The position numbers and the translations under genes were made by a program. From a virus: a stretch of DNA of 64,000 bases. Of this stretch, positions 3,007-58,200 are shown in pieces. Below the pieces are notes generated by a model, which worked only from the letters and a program-made list of their open reading frames with translations, did no database searches and was not told where the DNA came from. The stretch spans positions 1 through 64,000 of IMG/VR virus record IMGVR_UViG_3300044647_001247, one strand, 5' to 3'. The first letter of the stretch is position 1; each line of letters starts with the position of its first letter.

Positions 3007-3525
3007 TTATTTAATCACTTTGACAAAAGGTAACCCACTACCTGACCATGTTCCAGGTAATACACCATTCCATTTATCAATGGCTTTTTGTTCTAAAATT
3101 TGTGGAGTTATACCTCTAGAGCGTATAATATCTTCTTGAGCTTGTAATTCAGCTAATTCATTCTTTTTTCTTTGTTCAGTAATTTGTTGATCAATTACAG
3201 AAATATTAGTATTAACTTCATTACGAGTGTCAATTTTAGTCTTTACCTTTTCAGAAAAGTCTAAATTAGAACTAAAAGATATAAGTTCCAAACCAGCAAG
3301 TTCAAAAGATTTTTTAACTATTTCTTGAACTCGTTGTTCAAATAGTAAAGAACCACCTTGAGCCATTAAAGTGTCTGTAGTGTATTTTCTGCTTTCTTTT
3401 TTAATAATATCATAAATACGAGGTTCTAATACATTGTCTTCTAATGCTCTCATAAAGCCATCACCGGATCCAAGTCTAGAATTTTGAAAAACAAGATCAA
3501 CAACTTTAGTTTCAATAGCTTTATA
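3007..3525 (-). pseudogene. C-terminal part of a split SPFH/Band-7-like protein
   Basis: Downstream of the in-frame TAA at 3526-3528, the same frame continues without interruption as YKAIETKVVDLVFQNSR, then through an internal ATG at 3453, to a stop at 3007. The text matches a Band-7/prohibitin-type domain: a 'V..VF.N' helix, then 'ALEDNVLEPRIYDIIKKE', then a Lys/Glu/Gln coiled coil ('QRKKNELAELQAQEDIIRSRGI'). Restart at 3453 could make a 148-aa fragment. Either a nonsense change inactivated the gene or the base is wrong. Confidence 0.6.
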
Positions 3526-13086: not shown

Positions 13087-13513
13087 TGGAGCCGAGGGGA
13101 GTCGAACCCCTGTCCAAACAAGTCAATCATAATACCATTTTTACATGCTTAGCTATACTGTACACAGTAGCAAGAGTTTAATCTGTTTAAGCTGCCTCCC
13201 AGACATTAAACTGCTGTAGTCCACACAGTTCACTTATTCTGATTAGTATTGGGGTCATACTGGTGTATAACCTTCCACCACTCTGTTCTATTACGTGCAA
13301 ACAGAGAAGACACGTGTGCTTGTGACCGTTATGAACGCTGGTCAGGCGATGTATTATGCAGCAACTGCTACACGTACATTAGCGAAAGCCATATTGATAA
13401 TGGCTGCGCCTTCAGATTGACGGTTGTCAATTATTGTTTAGGAGTTGTTTGGCTCTCCCAAGCCTTGCATGTGATACTATCATTACCCTTGCTGTCAAAA
13501 CCAATACGGCCCC
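13087..13513 (-). ncRNA. ssrA: Transfer-messenger RNA (tmRNA)
   Basis: The 5' end GGGGCCGTATTGGTTTTGAC and the 3' end with T arm GTTCGACTCCCCTCGGCTCCA are diagnostic; the acceptor GGGGCCG/CGGCTCC pairs over 7 bp with one G-U. Inside is a tag frame ending TAA at 13354-13356. The codons at 13357-13383 read ANVRVAVAA, similar in plan to the ANDENYALAA-type degron. CCA is not encoded. tmRNA rescues stalled ribosomes with SmpB; no smpB is seen in the window, so host SmpB would be needed. Confidence 0.93.
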
Positions 13514-13536: not shown

Positions 13537-13770
13537 CTATATACGTCTATCATCTTTTTTTTGATGTTCTCTAGTGCACCATCTAAGGACTTGAATTGAT
13601 TCACCACAAAGTGTCATCTCCCTACCATCGTATACAATTTCTTTTTCATCCATCCCAAAGAATATCATATCTCTAATGGCACCTAGTTTACTGAAATCAT
13701 CCTCTGTTTCAGCTATAAGTTTATATCCTACACGCTTTTCATCATCGTTGTAAATGAATTCTATTTTCAT
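13537..13770 (-). CDS. Hypothetical protein (77 aa)
   Basis: The start at 13770 gives MKIEFIYNDDEKRVGYKLIA; the longer frame to 13839 adds a hydrophobic stretch in a gene-free leader and is not preferred. It is small, acidic and beta-rich with 'FFGMDEKEIVYDGRE'. It lies immediately upstream of the tmRNA gene on the same strand. Confidence 0.6.
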   Translation of the reverse strand: MKIEFIYNDDEKRVGYKLIAETEDDFSKLGAIRDMIFFGMDEKEIVYDGREMTLCGESIQVLRWCTREHQKKDDRRI

Positions 13771-13839
13771 AATTGATTGATTTTTAATTGTTTGTGTATA
13801 TTGTTTGAAGAAAATAATTAAATAAATTCCCCTTTGCAC

Positions 13840-13928
13840 AACAGATGTAATAGTAAATAATTATATCTTTCAGTATCTACCTCGTAAGGCGTTCAGATAA
13901 ATTATTATGATCAACTATTACATCTGTT
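13840..13928 (-). ncRNA. Candidate structured RNA element C, 15-bp perfect closing stem
   Basis: AACAGATGTAATAGT (13840-13854) and ACTATTACATCTGTT (13914-13928) are perfect complements. Inside, a second helix (AATAATT/AATTATT and TATCT/AGATA) and a CCT-TACG-AGG hairpin continue the fold. There is no ORF. It is the first of a closely spaced series reaching 14716. Confidence 0.6.
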
Positions 13929-14164
13929 TTCTCACCTCTTGAGAGCTGATTAATTAGTGGCTTTTTTACTAGGTAGTATCCACCAAGGTTGGTTACACAT
14001 TTAAGGCTAATGTTTCACCGTTACCTGTTGATTAATCAGGTCTGCTTACACACACATCTTATGAAGTAACCTCTCATCACCTTAAAGGCTCAAGGTACAA
14101 GTTAACTCCTGTTTAATACTTTCGCTAAGAAATGTGTCCACGTGAGAATGTGCATTGGAAAATA
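13929..14164. other. Gene-free spacer with weaker inverted repeats
   Basis: No ORF. CTGATTAAT/ATTAATCAG (about 13951 and 14030), ACCAA/TTGGT (near 13991) and ACCTG/CAGGT (near 14024-14042) give possible helices but no clear closing stem. Its placement between elements C and D suggests a further, less regular member. Confidence 0.35.
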
Positions 14165-14263
14165 ATGTATGCTCTCAACCTTCCCAACTTTCTTACCCTT
14201 TCAAGAAAATGACTCTTAAAAATTAGAGGTATGGTAATAGGATTTCTACCAGAGAGCATACAT
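14165..14263 (-). ncRNA. Candidate structured RNA element D, 12-bp perfect closing stem
   Basis: ATGTATGCTCTC (14165-14176) and GAGAGCATACAT (14252-14263) pair perfectly. Three internal hairpins are visible on the minus strand: GGTA/TACC, CTCT/AGAG and TTTCTT/AAGAAA, giving a cloverleaf-like multiloop. It lies 3 nt from the tRNA-like element 14267-14405. Confidence 0.6.
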
Positions 14264-14266
14264 ATT

Positions 14267-14405
14267 TGGTCCCATAAGCAGGAATCGAACCTACACACAT
14301 ACATATGTTCCAGAAGGAGAACATATAATGTAAAAACCCCTAAACCCGACTGTTTAGTGTTTTCTTAATAGAACTGTCGCTCTATTAGTGATGCCAATCT
14401 ACGGG
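14267..14405 (-). tRNA. tRNA-like element with encoded CCA (noncanonical, 139 nt)
   Basis: On the minus strand it begins CCCGTAG and ends TTATGGG-A-CCA, a 7-bp acceptor with two wobbles. A perfect T arm (GTAGG-TTCGATT-CCTGC) precedes it. Between these lie a TAATAGA/TCTATTA hairpin, a CTAAA/TTTAG hairpin with an 8-nt loop, and a long hairpin around TATGTTC/GAACATA. No normal D or anticodon arm can be assigned. It could be a diverged class II tRNA, a tRNA relic, or a tRNA-like RNA made for aminoacylation or processing. Confidence 0.5.
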
Positions 14406-14441
14406 AATTATATAACAAAAGAGCCCTGTTCCCTCTGCGTT

Positions 14442-14557
14442 CAGTTGTAATAGCAAGCCAATAACACAAAAATGTTATCTGTTTGCTGCAAGACTTTGTT
14501 CACGTATATAAAATACGTAGCTGTTTAGGCATTCTCTTTATCTCACTATTACAACTG
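14442..14557 (-). ncRNA. Candidate structured RNA element E, 12-bp perfect closing stem
   Basis: CAGTTGTAATAG (14442-14453) and CTATTACAACTG (14546-14557) pair perfectly. Internal perfect hairpins are ACGTAT/ATACGT and ATAACA/TGTTAT. The closing sequence resembles that of element C (shared TGTAATAG), hinting at common origin or a common ligand. There is no ORF. Confidence 0.6.
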
Positions 14558-14590
14558 CCTGTCCTTGGGAAACAGGAATGACGCATTAGA

Positions 14591-14716
14591 ATTGTATGTC
14601 CACCCTACATATTTGCATCACAAGAACATAAAAGCTCTATTTGGCCAAGCAAAACTGCCTGTTCTCTACAAATATGCATCACGGATGCATTAAGACACTA
14701 CACGGTCACATACAAT
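14591..14716 (-). ncRNA. Candidate structured RNA element F, 9-bp closing stem
   Basis: ATTGTATGT (14591-14599) and ACATACAAT (14708-14716) pair. Inside, on the minus strand, ATGCAT-CCGTG-ATGCAT forms a perfect hairpin, and CATATTTG/CAAATATG with AGAACA/TGTTCT form a longer helix. There is no ORF. Confidence 0.5.
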
Positions 14717-14751
14717 ATATTAAAAGAATGGTTTTGGTGAATTGGAAAGAA

Positions 14752-14789
14752 ATGGTGAACCAGACTCATTCAAGAGCCCAGTTCACCAT
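14752..14789 (-). terminator. Hairpin after the gene at 14801
   Basis: ATGGTGAAC (14752-14760) and GTTCACCAT (14781-14789) form a 9-bp stem directly after the stop of the leftward gene. The following T tract (TTTCTTTCC) is moderate. Confidence 0.5.
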
Positions 14790-31241: not shown

Positions 31242-31669
31242 TGCAAAAGTTACAAAGACCTGGTACATCAAATGCAGCAGGAACATCTGTAGAAGCTAAA
31301 ACTGCAGCTTGTGTAACTGAACTTATGAATGCTTCTGCAAGTTTTCATAAGCTTCATTTAAAAGTGACAGGTGTAGGTTCTTTTTCTAGTCATAAAGCTC
31401 TTAATGAACTATATGACGCTCTTCCAGGACATGCTGATACACTTGCTGAGGGTTTTCAAGGAGCTTCTGAAAAACTTTTGGAATATAGCGGTGATGTAGC
31501 TCCTACTAATTTAAACTCAGTTCAAGAAGCATTAGCTTATTTAAGAACTATGACAAGTATGATAAACTCTTTACAGTCTATTATGCCTTACAGTGAAATA
31601 AGTAATGATCTTGATAATGTAAAAAGCACAATTAACAGTATTAAATATAAACTACTTTTTCTTAAATAA
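31241..31669 (+). CDS. Helical protein (142 aa), ferritin-like or Dps-like pattern
   Basis: The text 'CVTELMNASASFHKLHLKVTGVGSFSSHKALNELYDALPGHADTLAEGFQGASEK' resembles the DNA-binding Dps/ferritin-like helix bundle ('H...H' and 'D...E' spacing). Only some metal ligands are visible, so enzymatic function is uncertain. It lies in the head module and could be a virion or DNA-protecting protein. Confidence 0.55.
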   Translation: MQKLQRPGTSNAAGTSVEAKTAACVTELMNASASFHKLHLKVTGVGSFSSHKALNELYDALPGHADTLAEGFQGASEKLLEYSGDVAPTNLNSVQEALAYLRTMTSMINSLQSIMPYSEISNDLDNVKSTINSIKYKLLFLK

Positions 31670-39295: not shown

Positions 39296-41929
39296 ATGCC
39301 AGCTTTAGTATCAAATACATTAATGAGAGGAGTGGATAAACCTGTATGGCAATGGACACGTTTTGCCCCAGCAGTTAGTTCTGCAATATCAAGTTCTTGT
39401 GCCGCAGATAATGGTAACTTTTTGCCAGAAGAACATGGAAGATATATACCTTATTTAATTTCTGCAACATCTTTTGTAAAATATGATACTTGGACTGATA
39501 TGTATCAACCTTTATCAGCCCCACCTATTGCACCTGTTACATTTTCCTCAATGAAATATAGTGCAGCTTTTGGTATAGAGGGTAGTGTTATTGCAGCAGG
39601 AGCAAGCACACTAACTATACCATCTGTTACAATGCAATCATTACTTGGGTATGATGTAGAAATTATATCAGGAACAGGTGCAGGACAAATACGAACTATT
39701 ACGGGTGTAGCAGAACCTATTATTGCTGATAGTGGGATAGTAACTGCTGTAAATAACGTAGTAGGTGCTTTAAACATTACAGATACATTAAAGGCTTTTG
39801 CAATTAATCAATATACAGGATATACACTTCGTATAACAGGTAATGCTGGGGTTAGTCAGATTAGAAGAATATTATCAAACACTGCCACTCAAATAGTTTT
39901 GGGTGATGTAACCCAAGCAAATGAAATTTGGAACAACCCTGCTGTATTCAACCCTGCAATTAATGCAACAGCAGGTTCACAAGCTGCATATTCTATTGAA
40001 TCACAAGTTGTAACTGTTGATTCTGCGTGGACTGTTCAACCTGATGCCACTTCTGTGTTTAAGGTTAAAACAGGAATTGTTATTTTAGTTTCTAGTGCTG
40101 CTGCTGCTCCGTTTTTCACTATGCAAGCCTATGACATGATTTCAGACACATGGTATATTATACCATCTATGTCTGGTATTTTTGCAGCAGTAGGTACAGA
40201 TTGCAGTATTGAAAGTACTACTGAAAACTCATCCTTATGGTATCGTGGTATTGCTGCATCAACAAGCACTGTAACTACATTGGTAGATTCTTCACTTGGA
40301 GTTGATAGAAAAGCATGGGAAGTTAACCAGTGGAAAGATTATTGGGTGTATATTTATTCAGGTGCAGGAGCAGGACAAATTCGTAAGATTGATAGTAATA
40401 CTGCTAACACGTTAACATGGACTACTCATATTAGTCCACATCCTAATGCAACAAGTAGATATTTTATTCTTGGATTTGATGCAGGAATAGCAACAGCAGG
40501 AGCTGCTTCTAGCATCACTGATTCAACTAAATCTTGGGTAGTAGACCGTTGGAAAAACTATGCAGTTAGAATCATGGCAGGTACGGGAGCAGGACAAGTA
40601 AAACCAATTGCATCTAATACAGCCACTGCACTAACTATTGTGGGCACTTGGGCAACTACACCTGATAACACATCTGTGTTTGTTATACAAGCTGACCCTA
40701 ATAAAGTATATCTTCAATTAGGAAGTGTTGCAGGATTGCCTATTCATAATATTGATTCACAAACTCCTACTTTTGGTAGACAGCAAGATTTTGGTATAGC
40801 AAGAAGTGGTTCTGCAACAGTTGCAGGTAACAGACCTGTAGCAATCACTACATTTGCAAATGCTACAACAACTGCAACTGTTACAACTGCACATAACCAT
40901 CAATTTAAGGTGGGTCAGTTGGTAACTGTTAGGGGTGCTACAGACGCAAATTTTAATGTGACGAATGTGGCTATTGCCACTGTACCATCAGCTACAACTT
41001 TTACCTACACAATGGCAGGAACACCTGCTGCTACTACTATTGCAAGCAACCAATCAACAACTGTACTTGTTGATGCTTCAAAGTCATGGACAGTAAACCA
41101 ATGGGCAGGACAAACAGTGTATATGTACACAACAGCAGTTACAGGGGCTACGGGAGCTGTAACAGGACAATCTTTTAGAATTGCAAGTAATACAGCAACC
41201 ACGTTAACACTTGTAGCTACTGCCACTGCTCCAACTAATGGTGTGAGTAGATATAGCATATCAACATCATCTGCTATTGGTGCTGCTGATTTTGGTGTAG
41301 CTACAGGTACTCAATCTACCACCACACTTCAAGACACTACAAAATCTTGGGCAGTTAATATTTGGGCAGGTAAAAGAGTAAGATATATAACCACAACGGG
41401 GGGACCAATAGAGGTTACAATTACCTCTAATACAGCAAATACACTTACTTTACCAACAACTAGTGCTGCAACTACTCTCGTTACAGGATATGTAATATTG
41501 GAGCAAACAGTAAAAGGGCTTGGTGTTAGTATGAACTGGACATTTGGAACAAGTGATTTGCTGACAAGAGGTAGGTATATGTTTTCAACACGTGGTGGTG
41601 CTGCTATTGGATTTGATAGATTTGATTTAACTACCGATAGGTGTAATCTTATATTTACAACTCCATTAACAGAAACCCTAACCACAGGTACAATGACTGC
41701 GTATGATGGTATGGACAATATATTCTTTCAGAAGGATGCTACACAAAGAGTGATGTCCTTGAACGTGGTAACGGGGAAGGTGAATGGTGGTTCTATGTAT
41801 CCTTACGCAGCACCAACAGCAATTATTGGCAATAGGATGGAAATCTTTACAACCAAAGATGGACTAAAATACATTTGGTTAAACCGGGCTTCTTTTGCAG
41901 AATGTTTCAAATGCTTAATCTTTTGGTAA
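39296..41929 (+). CDS. Large repeat protein with SNTAT-type beta repeats (877 aa)
   Basis: The start at 39296 (MPALVSNTLMRG) is preferred to a TTG at 39287. At least six copies of a repeat of about 65 aa occur, with a core 'W.V..W..Y.VRI..GTGAGQIR.I.SNTATTLT' and a following 'TS.Y.I'. Copies are spaced through residues about 125-760. The first 100 residues and the C-terminal 'TFGTSDLLTRGRYMFSTRGG' frame them. Likely a large tail or adhesion protein with repeated glycan-binding units. Confidence 0.65.
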   Translation: MPALVSNTLMRGVDKPVWQWTRFAPAVSSAISSSCAADNGNFLPEEHGRYIPYLISATSFVKYDTWTDMYQPLSAPPIAPVTFSSMKYSAAFGIEGSVIAAGASTLTIPSVTMQSLLGYDVEIISGTGAGQIRTITGVAEPIIADSGIVTAVNNVVGALNITDTLKAFAINQYTGYTLRITGNAGVSQIRRILSNTATQIVLGDVTQANEIWNNPAVFNPAINATAGSQAAYSIESQVVTVDSAWTVQPDATSVFKVKTGIVILVSSAAAAPFFTMQAYDMISDTWYIIPSMSGIFAAVGTDCSIESTTENSSLWYRGIAASTSTVTTLVDSSLGVDRKAWEVNQWKDYWVYIYSGAGAGQIRKIDSNTANTLTWTTHISPHPNATSRYFILGFDAGIATAGAASSITDSTKSWVVDRWKNYAVRIMAGTGAGQVKPIASNTATALTIVGTWATTPDNTSVFVIQADPNKVYLQLGSVAGLPIHNIDSQTPTFGRQQDFGIARSGSATVAGNRPVAITTFANATTTATVTTAHNHQFKVGQLVTVRGATDANFNVTNVAIATVPSATTFTYTMAGTPAATTIASNQSTTVLVDASKSWTVNQWAGQTVYMYTTAVTGATGAVTGQSFRIASNTATTLTLVATATAPTNGVSRYSISTSSAIGAADFGVATGTQSTTTLQDTTKSWAVNIWAGKRVRYITTTGGPIEVTITSNTANTLTLPTTSAATTLVTGYVILEQTVKGLGVSMNWTFGTSDLLTRGRYMFSTRGGAAIGFDRFDLTTDRCNLIFTTPLTETLTTGTMTAYDGMDNIFFQKDATQRVMSLNVVTGKVNGGSMYPYAAPTAIIGNRMEIFTTKDGLKYIWLNRASFAECFKCLIFW

Positions 41930-46476: not shown

Positions 46477-46971
46477 ATGAAAAAAATTACATTAAAACTA
46501 GTTGAGTTCTACAATCTTGACGCAGAGCTGAATGGTATAGTTGATCAAACAACAGGTGCTAAAAAGTCTTTTGGTCTTCTAGGAGAGAAGCTTTCTCTTG
46601 TTACTAAGTATTGGCTTACTGATCTTGCTAAAAAAGTAGCTGCTGAAAAAGTTGCAATAGAAGAACTTAGAAACGAACTTATTAAAAAATATGGTAAAGA
46701 AGAAAATGGGAATATTACAATCCCCATGTTAATAGATGATGATTCTAATGATGAAGAAACAGCAAGTAAAAAATTAAATCCTGATTTTCAACAGTTTGAA
46801 AAAGAATTTAATGAGCTTTTACAAACAGAAAAAGAAGTTGAATATAAACCAATTAAGCTTTCTGAATTAGAAAAGGTTGAAACATCAGAAAACTATGCTA
46901 CATTTTTCAAACTCTTAAATGAAGGAATCTCAGAAAATCCTGATAATGTTGTACCAATGACGCCTAGATAA
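46477..46971 (+). CDS. Helical assembly-type protein (164 aa)
   Basis: ATG at 46477 opens MKKITLKLVEFYNLDAELNG, a start common in phage tail-assembly genes; the frame could extend to a TTG at 46456 but less plausibly. The body is helical with Glu/Lys-rich stretches. It is followed by a terminator, closing the fibre cassette. Confidence 0.65.
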   Translation: MKKITLKLVEFYNLDAELNGIVDQTTGAKKSFGLLGEKLSLVTKYWLTDLAKKVAAEKVAIEELRNELIKKYGKEENGNITIPMLIDDDSNDEETASKKLNPDFQQFEKEFNELLQTEKEVEYKPIKLSELEKVETSENYATFFKLLNEGISENPDNVVPMTPR

Positions 46972-50316: not shown

Positions 50317-51240
50317 ATGGCCACATTAAGTGTATCGTTTACTCCTCCTGGAACACCCCCTGCAAATGGTTATAGGGTGCAATACTGGCTTGCATCAGAT
50401 CCTTCTACTATATTTACAGTGTCACCCAATCCTACATCATCTCCTGTTACTATTACAGGTCTTACTGGAACTTTTTATCAAGGTACTATAGAAGCTGATT
50501 GTGGTGGGGGGTTATATTCTTCTTTAAATACTTTTTCAGCCAATACAATAACAGGAGATCCTTGTTTATCAGGAAATACACTTGCTAATGCAAACTGTTC
50601 TCTTACTGAAACTAAAACATTTACACTATCTACAGGTTTTTCAACAACTGTAAATTTATATGGTTTTTATTATTCAGGAACAGGAATAAGAACTATATCA
50701 GGAAGACTGTTAAATAACAGTAATGCTTTAATCCAAGAGTTTACTTATACGCAAACAGGGGCTAGTGTAGGAACGACTAGTCCTAGTTTTTATACACTTA
50801 CTAATATATCAGGATCTGCTGTAAGTTATAAACTTCAAATTGACACTGTAATTTGCACCAACGGTACAGGTGTTGGAGCCATGACTGCTAGTGGTTGCAC
50901 ATCTACAAGTCCTTCTGTAGTAGTTAATAACGCTACATTCTCTGGTTTAACTATATCAGCAGTAACTGTTAATAGTGTTGCTGTAACATATGAAACAGGT
51001 GTTAACTTACCTATTGCATATTCAGGTTTAGGTTATTTTAGAACTACACAAGTGGGAACATTTAATATAGCTGTTTCATATAGCAATCCTGCTGTTTCTA
51101 GTCCAAGAGCTATACGTGTAACAGGTAGTAATGGTGTTTCTCAAACACAAACTTCTCAAGCAACAAGTGCAACACTTACATTTAGTAACGTAGTGGTAAA
51201 CACTTCACAATCTGTACAGATAGCTATTGTGCAGAGTTAA
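50317..51240 (+). CDS. FN3-like adhesin (307 aa)
   Basis: The N-terminal domain 'LSVSFTPPGTPPANGYRVQYW' with 'FYQGTIEADCGGGLYSS' is related to the preceding gene. Two further beta domains follow, ending in 'SATLTFSNVVVNTSQSVQIAIVQS', Ig-like. It is the last gene before a terminator. Role probably host-surface or glycan binding. Confidence 0.7.
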   Translation: MATLSVSFTPPGTPPANGYRVQYWLASDPSTIFTVSPNPTSSPVTITGLTGTFYQGTIEADCGGGLYSSLNTFSANTITGDPCLSGNTLANANCSLTETKTFTLSTGFSTTVNLYGFYYSGTGIRTISGRLLNNSNALIQEFTYTQTGASVGTTSPSFYTLTNISGSAVSYKLQIDTVICTNGTGVGAMTASGCTSTSPSVVVNNATFSGLTISAVTVNSVAVTYETGVNLPIAYSGLGYFRTTQVGTFNIAVSYSNPAVSSPRAIRVTGSNGVSQTQTSQATSATLTFSNVVVNTSQSVQIAIVQS

Positions 51241-55275: not shown

Positions 55276-58200
55276 GCAACAACAAAATCCTGGAGTGATC
55301 ACTAACACCTTTAGTAATGGTATGGTGAAAGACTACAATGAAACATTTGTAGGAGAAGGATTATATACTCATGCTCGCAATGTTGTAAGTAATTCACATG
55401 ATGGTCAGCTTGGTGTAAAAGGTAATGAGCCAGCTAACTTAAGTTGCATCACTCTTCCTTATAGCTTAATAGGATGTATTCATCTTTCTGATGATCAATG
55501 GTCTGTATATACAACAGATGATACTAATTCTGAGATAGGAATATTTGATGAAAGTCAATGCACTTATACAAAGGTGGTAAATGATCCATGTTTAGGATTT
55601 AAAAGATCTAACTTAATTACAGGTGCTTCACGTAAACGTTATGATTGCGATAGACCTGTTTATTGGGTTGATGCACTGAATCCAGATAGATTTATGGATC
55701 TTAGTAATCCCCCTTTTAAATATATAGAAACTATAGTTGATGGTTGTAAAGTAAAAACTATAACACAACCTTTACAGCTTGATTGTGAAAAGATAAGACT
55801 TGCATCTTTAATACAACATCCTTGTTTAATCTTAAATAAAGGAAAAGTTGCAGGAACTTTACCTAATGGTTCTTATCAAGTTGCTATAGCTTACACTGAA
55901 GATGGTGTTAGATTAACCGGGTATATTGGAATATCAGAAGTACAATCATTATTTACACATGAAAATGTTAGTTCTTCTTTAGAACTATCAATTACTACTA
56001 TAGATACAACATTTGACGAATTTGAGTTAGTTGTAATTGGTCGTATTAATGGTACAACAGTAGTTAAAAAAATAGGAAACTACTCAACCTCACAAGGTAA
56101 AATATACATTGACAGGTGGGATCAAGAGTTTGAAACAGTGCCAATTAGTCAAGTGGTATTTAGAGGAGACTCTTCTGAAAAAAGTGATGCTATATACGAA
56201 GTGAATAATTATTTATTAAAAATTGGAGACTATTCAAAGTTTAAATTTAATTATCAAAAACAAGCTAATAATATAAATGTTAGTTGGACAGCTGTTCAAT
56301 ATCCTTCTAATTATTATTTTAAAGGTGGAAATAATACTGGTTATTTAAGAGATGAACAATATTCATTTTTTATAAGATGGGTATACAACACTGGTGAACG
56401 TTCTGAGTCCTATCATATACCTGGAAGAGATGCTCTAGCTAGTGATAGAACTTTAGTAATGGGAGATGATGCTTTTGAAACATCTGGTATAGATTCTATT
56501 ACAAGAGAAAGATGGCAGGTGTATAATACAGCCACTTTAGATAATCTAAATAGTTACACTCTTTCTGATGGAGGGCTTGTTATAGCATCAGGTAAAATGG
56601 GATTTTGGGAAAGCACTGAAAAATATCCAGATAACACTCCTGATATTTGGGGAACATTATGTGGAAAAAACATTAGACATCATAAGATGCCTGATGAAAC
56701 TACAGCTCCATCCTTAAATTTATTTTCAAATAATGGTAAATTTATTAATATTCTTGGAGTTAACTTTAGTAATATAACTCATCCTTTAGACAACCAAGGT
56801 AATCCTATACAGTCAATTGTAGGATATGAATTATTAAGAGGATCTAGAGAAGGTAATAAATCTATTATTGGAAAAGGACTGCTTAATAATATGAGGGAAT
56901 ATTCTATTCCTAATCAAACAACTAAAGGGCTTTTTCAAAATTATCCATACAATGATTTAAGACCAGATCCTTATTTAACAGATTCTCCTAATTTAGATGG
57001 TCAATCTGCATTAAAAGGACAAGCTAATGTTTCCACTTCAAAAATGAGTGGCTATAAAAAGAATATATTTTCATTTCATAGTCCTGATGTAACTTTTTCC
57101 AATCCTTTTTTAAATGCCAATGAACTAACTATTTATCAGGAAGTGTATGGTGAATCTAATGGTAGATTTGTTAATTCTTGGAAACATCCTAAATTTAAAG
57201 TTTTAAGTAATTTTAGTTCAGTTTTCGGAGATGTAGCTTCTATAATAAGCACAGTTCAAACAGCTCTTGGAGCACTTGGAGGAGGTCTTGATTTAAAAAT
57301 TGAAGCTGATAAAGATGCTCCTGTATCAACAGGACTAACTTTAAATCCAAACTATGCTGGAGATACAGTTACTGTTTTTGGTTCAGGTGCCTCACCTTTA
57401 ACTATTGCACAGTTTATTGCAGCAGGTGTTGCAAATGGACTTTTAATAGGTGCGTTGATAGGAACAGGTATTCTACCAGCAATGTATAAACAACAGTATT
57501 TAAGACTTTTTATATATTTAATTCCTAAAAAACAATACTCAGCTCAATATAATTCACATGGTGTTTATGATGGAGGAGCCATACCAAAAAAAATAGGTAA
57601 TAAAAGAAGAAAGATTAAAGAAGCATTATATATAGGAAGTGGAAATAGCCAGTTTAATTCTGACTATTTTGTTAATAACACAGCTAGAAGTAATGTAGTT
57701 GTTTTAGAAACTGAAAAAGATTTGGATGATCCAACCACTACAGACAATAGTAGAGTGACATTAGGTGAAGCAAATAGTAATTTATATCAAAATATTAAAA
57801 CAACTATATCAAGTCACTATGGTGCTTTAAAAATTAGCATACCTTCTCAATATGGTCAATTAGGTGGAATAAAACAATTTCCTATAAATGGAGGTTGTAT
57901 TTTTAACACTACACCTGATAAGACTAAAAAGTTTAATACATCTTCTCCACTTTTTAACGGAGACACTTATATAAATAAATTTACTGAAAAAAACACAATG
58001 TTCTTTTTCACTGATTGGATGATTGGTGAGCCTGATAGAACTGAATGGGATTACACTTTATATATGTATATTCCCTATCCAAGATTTTGGATAAATAATG
58101 TAGAAGAAAATGTAGCTTTTTTAGAAGCAGCTGATAATTATAGATCATTAGATAAAAGAACATCTGGTTTCTTACATGTAAGTTCTGGATATTTTTATTT

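Follow-up and report, generated by a model that had tools for sequence, protein, structure and literature searches.

The window analysed here, a 64-kb stretch of DNA, is the first part of a 109.8-kb IMG/VR virus record. Its terminase matches a phage terminase family and is approximately 25% identical to the terminases of crAss-like and Flavobacterium phages, and this phage is therefore distantly related to that group. Around 15.7-12.5 kb, genes and RNAs are carried on the minus strand, among them a tmRNA gene (13513-13084) identified by both ARAGORN and Rfam (RF00023, 88.9 bits), which confirms that a tmRNA lies beside the array of structured elements reported in a preliminary description of this region. 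The tag read by ARAGORN (VNLKAQPLSIWLSLMYV, 13354-13446, minus strand) is probably in the wrong frame; another frame ends in ..NMAFANVRVAVAA-stop, as tmRNA tags usually do. Between the tmRNA and the array, the ORF list contains a 77-aa reading frame (13537-13770, minus strand) that had no match in PHROG. On the other side of the array is an 84-aa gene, separated from it by a terminator-like hairpin (14752-14789, minus strand) that was found by consensus scan only. Just upstream of the 84-aa gene is a conserved hairpin whose loop, GGUG, has its pseudoknot partner, CACC, farther downstream; it is located at 15145-15085 on the minus strand of the window and, in related loci, at L001 6274-6335 and L005 7928-7994. 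This hairpin gave no Rfam match, and it lies near the place occupied by a hatchet ribozyme in locus L002.

An exhaustive search of positions 13830-14730 recovered the four perfect stems noted previously, 13840/13928 (15 bp), 14165/14263 (12 bp), 14442/14557 (12 bp), and 14591/14716 (9 bp), as well as a fifth perfect inverted repeat of 9 bp (13946/14039) that had been missed. Three stems of at least 11 bp were observed, against a mean of 0.045 and a maximum of 2 in 200 dinucleotide shuffles, and the single elements have fold z-scores of -2.5 to -4.7 relative to shuffled sequence; taken together, these values exclude chance. Because fold energy alone cannot pick the strand (z = -4.9 for the minus strand and -5.8 for the plus strand over the whole stretch), strand was assigned using homologues, and all elements of the array belong to the minus strand. 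Elsewhere in the window, further perfect inverted repeats of 11 bp spanning 60-135 nt occur at 31537-31669, 40816-40882, 46793-46913, 50439-50559, 50988-51081, and 57696-57806.

Relatives of the array were found starting from the 84-aa gene, giving loci L001 to L006. L001 is approximately 99% identical to the window over the 84-aa gene, and its array is rearranged. A recurring string is present in the window, L001, L002, and L004, consisting of a hairpin with loop UUCCCAAGG, then GCAGUUGUAAUA, a variable insert, UAUUACAACUGA, and NNGCAGAGGG. The RNA core represented by this string has the order P1-UAA-P2-P4 (loop UUCCCAAGG)-P5-P2'-GAGGG-P1', in which P2 is UGCAC/GUGCA, P4 is CUCAC/GUGAG, and the CCC of the P4 loop pairs with the GGG in a pseudoknot. 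All of these elements have a long P5 arm, and P3 is absent. This arrangement is that of the self-cleaving twister ribozyme, making RNA processing the likely activity in place of the decoys or unspecified small RNAs suggested previously. The element boundaries also had to be redrawn, as two of the closing stems lie within larger RNAs (14590-14431 and 14158-13828), of which they form just the P5 arms. The sequence common to stems 14557/14442 and 13928/13840, TGTAATAG, is meaningful, since both are P5 arms of twister-type ribozymes. What had been suggested to be one family of four elements is instead two twister-type RNAs, a separate recurrent module, and a hairpin domain.

In an alignment of 21 sequences, two-sided changes were found at 14 of 28 pairs, and the score collapsed once the partners were slid. 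A descriptor with no requirement for P1 or P5 retrieved 130 distinct elements, with 0 found in reversed sequence. P5 was 93% paired among these elements, with 101 two-sided changes (14 in shuffles), and P1 was 64% paired overall, with 178 two-sided changes (104 in shuffles). As pairing of P2, P4, and the pseudoknot between the P4 loop and L1 (T1) was required by the descriptor, it is the changes in these helices that count and not their percentages. T1 occurs as CCC/GGG, CAC/GTG, and CCA/TGG, while the second twister pseudoknot (T2, P4 loop/L2) is represented by possible C-G pairs whose partners are almost invariant. Covariation of P1, P2, P4, P5, and T1, which had been proposed as a check on the array, is thus present both in the 21 aligned sequences and in 125 descriptor-found elements, the rows being related sequences and the pattern scans fixing parts of the core. 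The search required only the AA of UAA; the U before the putative cut is nevertheless present in 124 of 130 elements, and a G after P2' in 127 of 130. The structured RNAs of this phage do form an array, and they have relatives.

Copy 1 of the twister-type core in the window is of the small form (14590-14431, minus strand), and was assigned using the covarying core in relatives with both model R1 and the descriptor. Its helices are P2 (14585-14581/14440-14436), P4 (14576-14572/14562-14558, with loop L4 at 14571-14563), and P5 (14557-14546/14453-14442), and its pseudoknot is formed by C14569-14567 and G14433-14431. This copy keeps every position of the core, among them all catalytic positions considered, including the conserved G (G14435) and the U-A site, and the predicted cut is between U14588 and A14587. 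P1 is weak in the window, as it is in L001 and L089, but this need not matter, since P1 of twister has been reported to be dispensable for cleavage (PMC6154101). Copy 2 (14158-13828, minus strand) has its helices in the same order as 25 intact large forms: P2 (14154-14150/13839-13835), P4 (14146-14142/13935-13931), beta (14039-14031/13954-13946), and P5 (13928-13914/13854-13840), and it has CATTCTCACGTGGACA in common with L002. It retains neither catalytic feature: C-A replaces the cleavage site and A13834 the conserved G, so that copy 2, a diverged large form, has possibly lost its activity. The end of copy 2 is 58 nt from the ATG of the 77-aa gene at 13770, placing this copy in the leader of that gene.

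Between the two copies are a tRNA-like RNA and a hairpin domain closed by 12 bp. The CCA-ending tRNA-like element noted previously is real and lies on the minus strand at 14406-14267 (fold z = -4.5), with a 7-bp acceptor stem (14406-14400/14276-14270), a T arm (14294-14278) with loop UUCGAUU, CCA at 14269-14267, and three other arms that are enlarged. It shares the acceptor stem, T arm, and CCA with tRNA and with the tRNA-like domain of tmRNA, but lacks D and anticodon arms shaped like those of tRNA. ARAGORN and Rfam were both negative at this element, in agreement with the earlier statement that no tRNA can be read here, and neither found a cloverleaf with a readable anticodon; the possibility of a tRNA array was rejected for lack of a cloverleaf. 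The acceptor stem and T arm are retained in L001 (6704-6853), and with these two parts this RNA could be a further RNase P processing site. The 12-bp hairpin domain (14263-14165, minus strand; fold z = -3.4) had no credible relative in the loci collected. Module A (14716-14591, minus strand), just upstream of copy 1, consists of a closing stem, a small hairpin, and a stem with a GUGAUG internal loop, and has ten relatives. In the window, L089, and L068 it occurs on its own, but in L028, L157, and L074 it makes up a twister's P5 arm. Another RNA is shared by L089 (10335-10268, minus strand) and L016 (4390-4318, minus strand), where it is found just upstream of a twister; it is made of two hairpins, and in the second of these a covarying stem bears the conserved loop AUAUAAUGCGAAGUGAA.

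Scanning viral contigs with the 5' half of the core gave at least 120 stretches, and a matching 3' half was present in 97 hits among the matches listed, duplicate loci included. A relaxed count found 210 elements in 177 of the 206 loci collected, a few contigs being near-duplicates, and 31 of the 206 carry two or three copies, on the same strand every time. As model R1 aligns members with long inserts poorly, its per-genome counts are lower bounds. The core is present in at least about 170 viral contigs and essentially never in bacterial genomes: the 5' pattern gave 31 hits in 257 Gb of bacterial and archaeal genomes, only one of which looks real (L226). This hit is on a 4.6-kb contig from Lake Lanier binned as Alphaproteobacteria, is the sole cellular-genome hit with a true 5' core (the 3' half being off the contig), and is probably a wrongly binned phage contig. 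BLAST searches against named phages gave no match for the array region, a 72-nt consensus, or a large-form locus, and chance-level hits only for one small-form locus. Rfam searches of the window at permissive thresholds, twister models included, gave no informative hit. L016 also has a sub-threshold match to the ribosomal S15 leader (3184-3286, minus strand; 29 bits, E 0.008), in a phage.

The interior of the P5 arm has a median length of 74 nt and reaches 243 nt, and its contents, here called cargo, fall into 103 sequence clusters in 128 elements. The copy 1 cargo (14545-14454, minus strand) was compared with the corresponding sequences of L016/L024 and L001: it shares 78% identity with the cargo that another core carries in L016/L024, and is missing from L001 despite the same core there. 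The same cargo in different cores was found for the pairs window/L016, L078/L046, L058/L193, and L153/L116, and the same core with different cargo for window/L001, indicating that arms are exchanged. The large subtype (25 distinct elements) keeps the whole core, including the conserved G in 25 of 25, and has two helices, alpha and beta, between P4 and its loop. Helix beta is CUGAUUA/UAAUCAG. In most large forms helix alpha encloses a strongly conserved internal loop, GUGGAYAURAAGACUUCU..AAGAUGUGAAACCAC, inserted in P4, while L018 has a minimal hairpin only. It is conceivable, if distinctly unlikely, that the large form is a natural switch in which a metabolite or protein bound by this loop controls whether the twister cuts phage leaders; the P4 insertion is a concrete candidate for a regulated twister, and such a switch would be one found in nature.

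The next downstream gene is co-directional with the element in 108 of 111 cases and the upstream neighbour is on the same strand in 94 of 119, while the distance from the element to the ATG of the next gene is most commonly 20-60 nt (median 138 nt). The downstream orientation and ATG distances fit leader elements that cut the transcript ahead of a gene, so that it begins with a structured 5'-OH end. We consider it probable that the array lies in the leader of a phage transcript and is made up of successive RNA-processing modules on the minus strand, with a shared core that is a new form of type-P1 twister. These RNAs are most likely self-cutting leader elements that set the 5' ends of phage transcripts. 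The core would fold by pairing of the CCC in the P4 loop with the GGG strand after P2', and the transcript would be cut between the U and A of UAA, at the 5' edge of the core, leaving a 5'-OH RNA with the folded ribozyme as a cap ahead of the next gene or RNA. We infer cleavage itself, and with it that these RNAs set or protect 5' ends. Counting for this reading are the covariation, the retention of the U and the G, the order and invariant bases held in common with RF03160, the strand agreement with the next gene, the exchange of cargo, the classic twister in L065, and the hatchet and hammerhead ribozymes that these phages also carry; the lack of an Rfam twister match, the reduction of T2 to C-G pairs, the weak P1, the relatedness of the sequences, and the parts of the core fixed by the pattern scans count against it.

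Twister descendants that no longer cut, serving on leaders as stable non-catalytic caps or protein-binding scaffolds with the cargo arm as the working part, are a rather unlikely explanation. They would account for the weak P1 in several copies, the absence of the conserved G from copy 2, and the long conserved P5 base, which is unusual for twister; a mere fold, however, needs neither the G nor the U-A site, and more than 95% of small forms and nearly all large forms retain them. The cargo could be a functional phage small RNA or decoy for which the core is only a carrier. The cargo is indeed very diverse and well folded, and a homologous cargo hairpin is compensated (ACGUAU/AUACGU in the window, ACCUAU/AUAGGU in L016), but P5 joins the cargo to the core on both sides, so that twister cleavage would not free it, and no target is suggested; we regard this as improbable.

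Least probable is that the elements are inverted repeats acting at the DNA level, for example as MITE-like elements or as sites of recombination, and play no part as RNA. Element and gene order is shuffled between the window and L001, cargo is exchanged, and elements in L073, L011, and L136 adjoin GIY-YIG endonuclease genes, as such repeats might lead one to expect. MITE-like elements should be oriented independently of genes, however, and strand agreement with the next gene was close to complete, while G-U pairs among the changes and the covarying pseudoknot point to RNA; a DNA repeat would be expected to show none of these. Endonuclease-driven mobility was rejected, as only 4 of 7 related GIY-YIG genes are near elements.

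If the twister-type elements are active, they would form a large group of self-cleaving phage RNAs that has not been listed before, whose fixed core and swappable arms make a natural scaffold for RNA cargo. Eckert et al. 2023 (PMC10085705) note an unexplained enrichment of bacterial twisters and hammerheads in the neighbourhood of Mu-like phage genes and of other ribozymes, and active elements would offer a testable answer to this open question of clustering near phage genes. No paper in the literature searched joins twister ribozymes with crAss-like phages, and it is possible that a few P5-bearing members have been sighted earlier.

Among known systems, the glmS ribozyme is a ligand-dependent leader ribozyme. 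It serves as a working analogy, being a self-cleaving RNA of a gene leader, although its fold differs and dependence on a ligand is a feature of glmS. Hatchet ribozymes (L002 7578-7710, L018 191-325) and a RAGATH-1/type-I hammerhead directly after a twister (L073 2710-2796) are self-cleaving RNAs in comparable places between small genes of these phages, but their folds differ from that of the new core. In L073 (1297-2796) two GIY-YIG endonuclease-like genes are interleaved with twister pieces, followed by this hammerhead. The window itself had no match to hatchet, pistol, or hammerhead, no group I intron core sequences were seen by eye, and no support was found for a CRISPR-repeat mimic. Twister-sister has a somewhat similar P4 loop but no P4-loop pseudoknot (PMC6154101), and was ruled out since the pseudoknot of the P4 loop with L1 is present and covarying in the new form. 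Published work on twister catalysis assigns the role of general base to a guanine near P2 and that of general acid to the adenine that follows the cut (PMC6154101, PMC6707401); in our own mapping, the conserved G after P2' may be this guanine.

The closest likeness is to twister type P1 (RF03160), which has the order P1-UAA-P2-P4-P2'-GAGGG-P1', the loop CCCAAG, the pseudoknot between the P4 loop and L1, U-A at the cut, the conserved G after P2', and the same invariant bases in its consensus. Unlike RF03160, the new form has no P3, a constant and long P5, exchange of cargo, and a large subtype with two helices inside P4; among annotated twisters, P5 is present in 1% and P3 in 78% (PMC6154101). 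Rfam twister models miss the new form entirely, even where classic twisters are detected: RF03160 was found in 2 of 40 phage records, elsewhere than the new-type elements, and in L065 a classic twister lies approximately 110 nt upstream of a new-type copy. As a model threshold is not a defining property of a ribozyme, the new form was filed as a variant of twister and not as RF03160.
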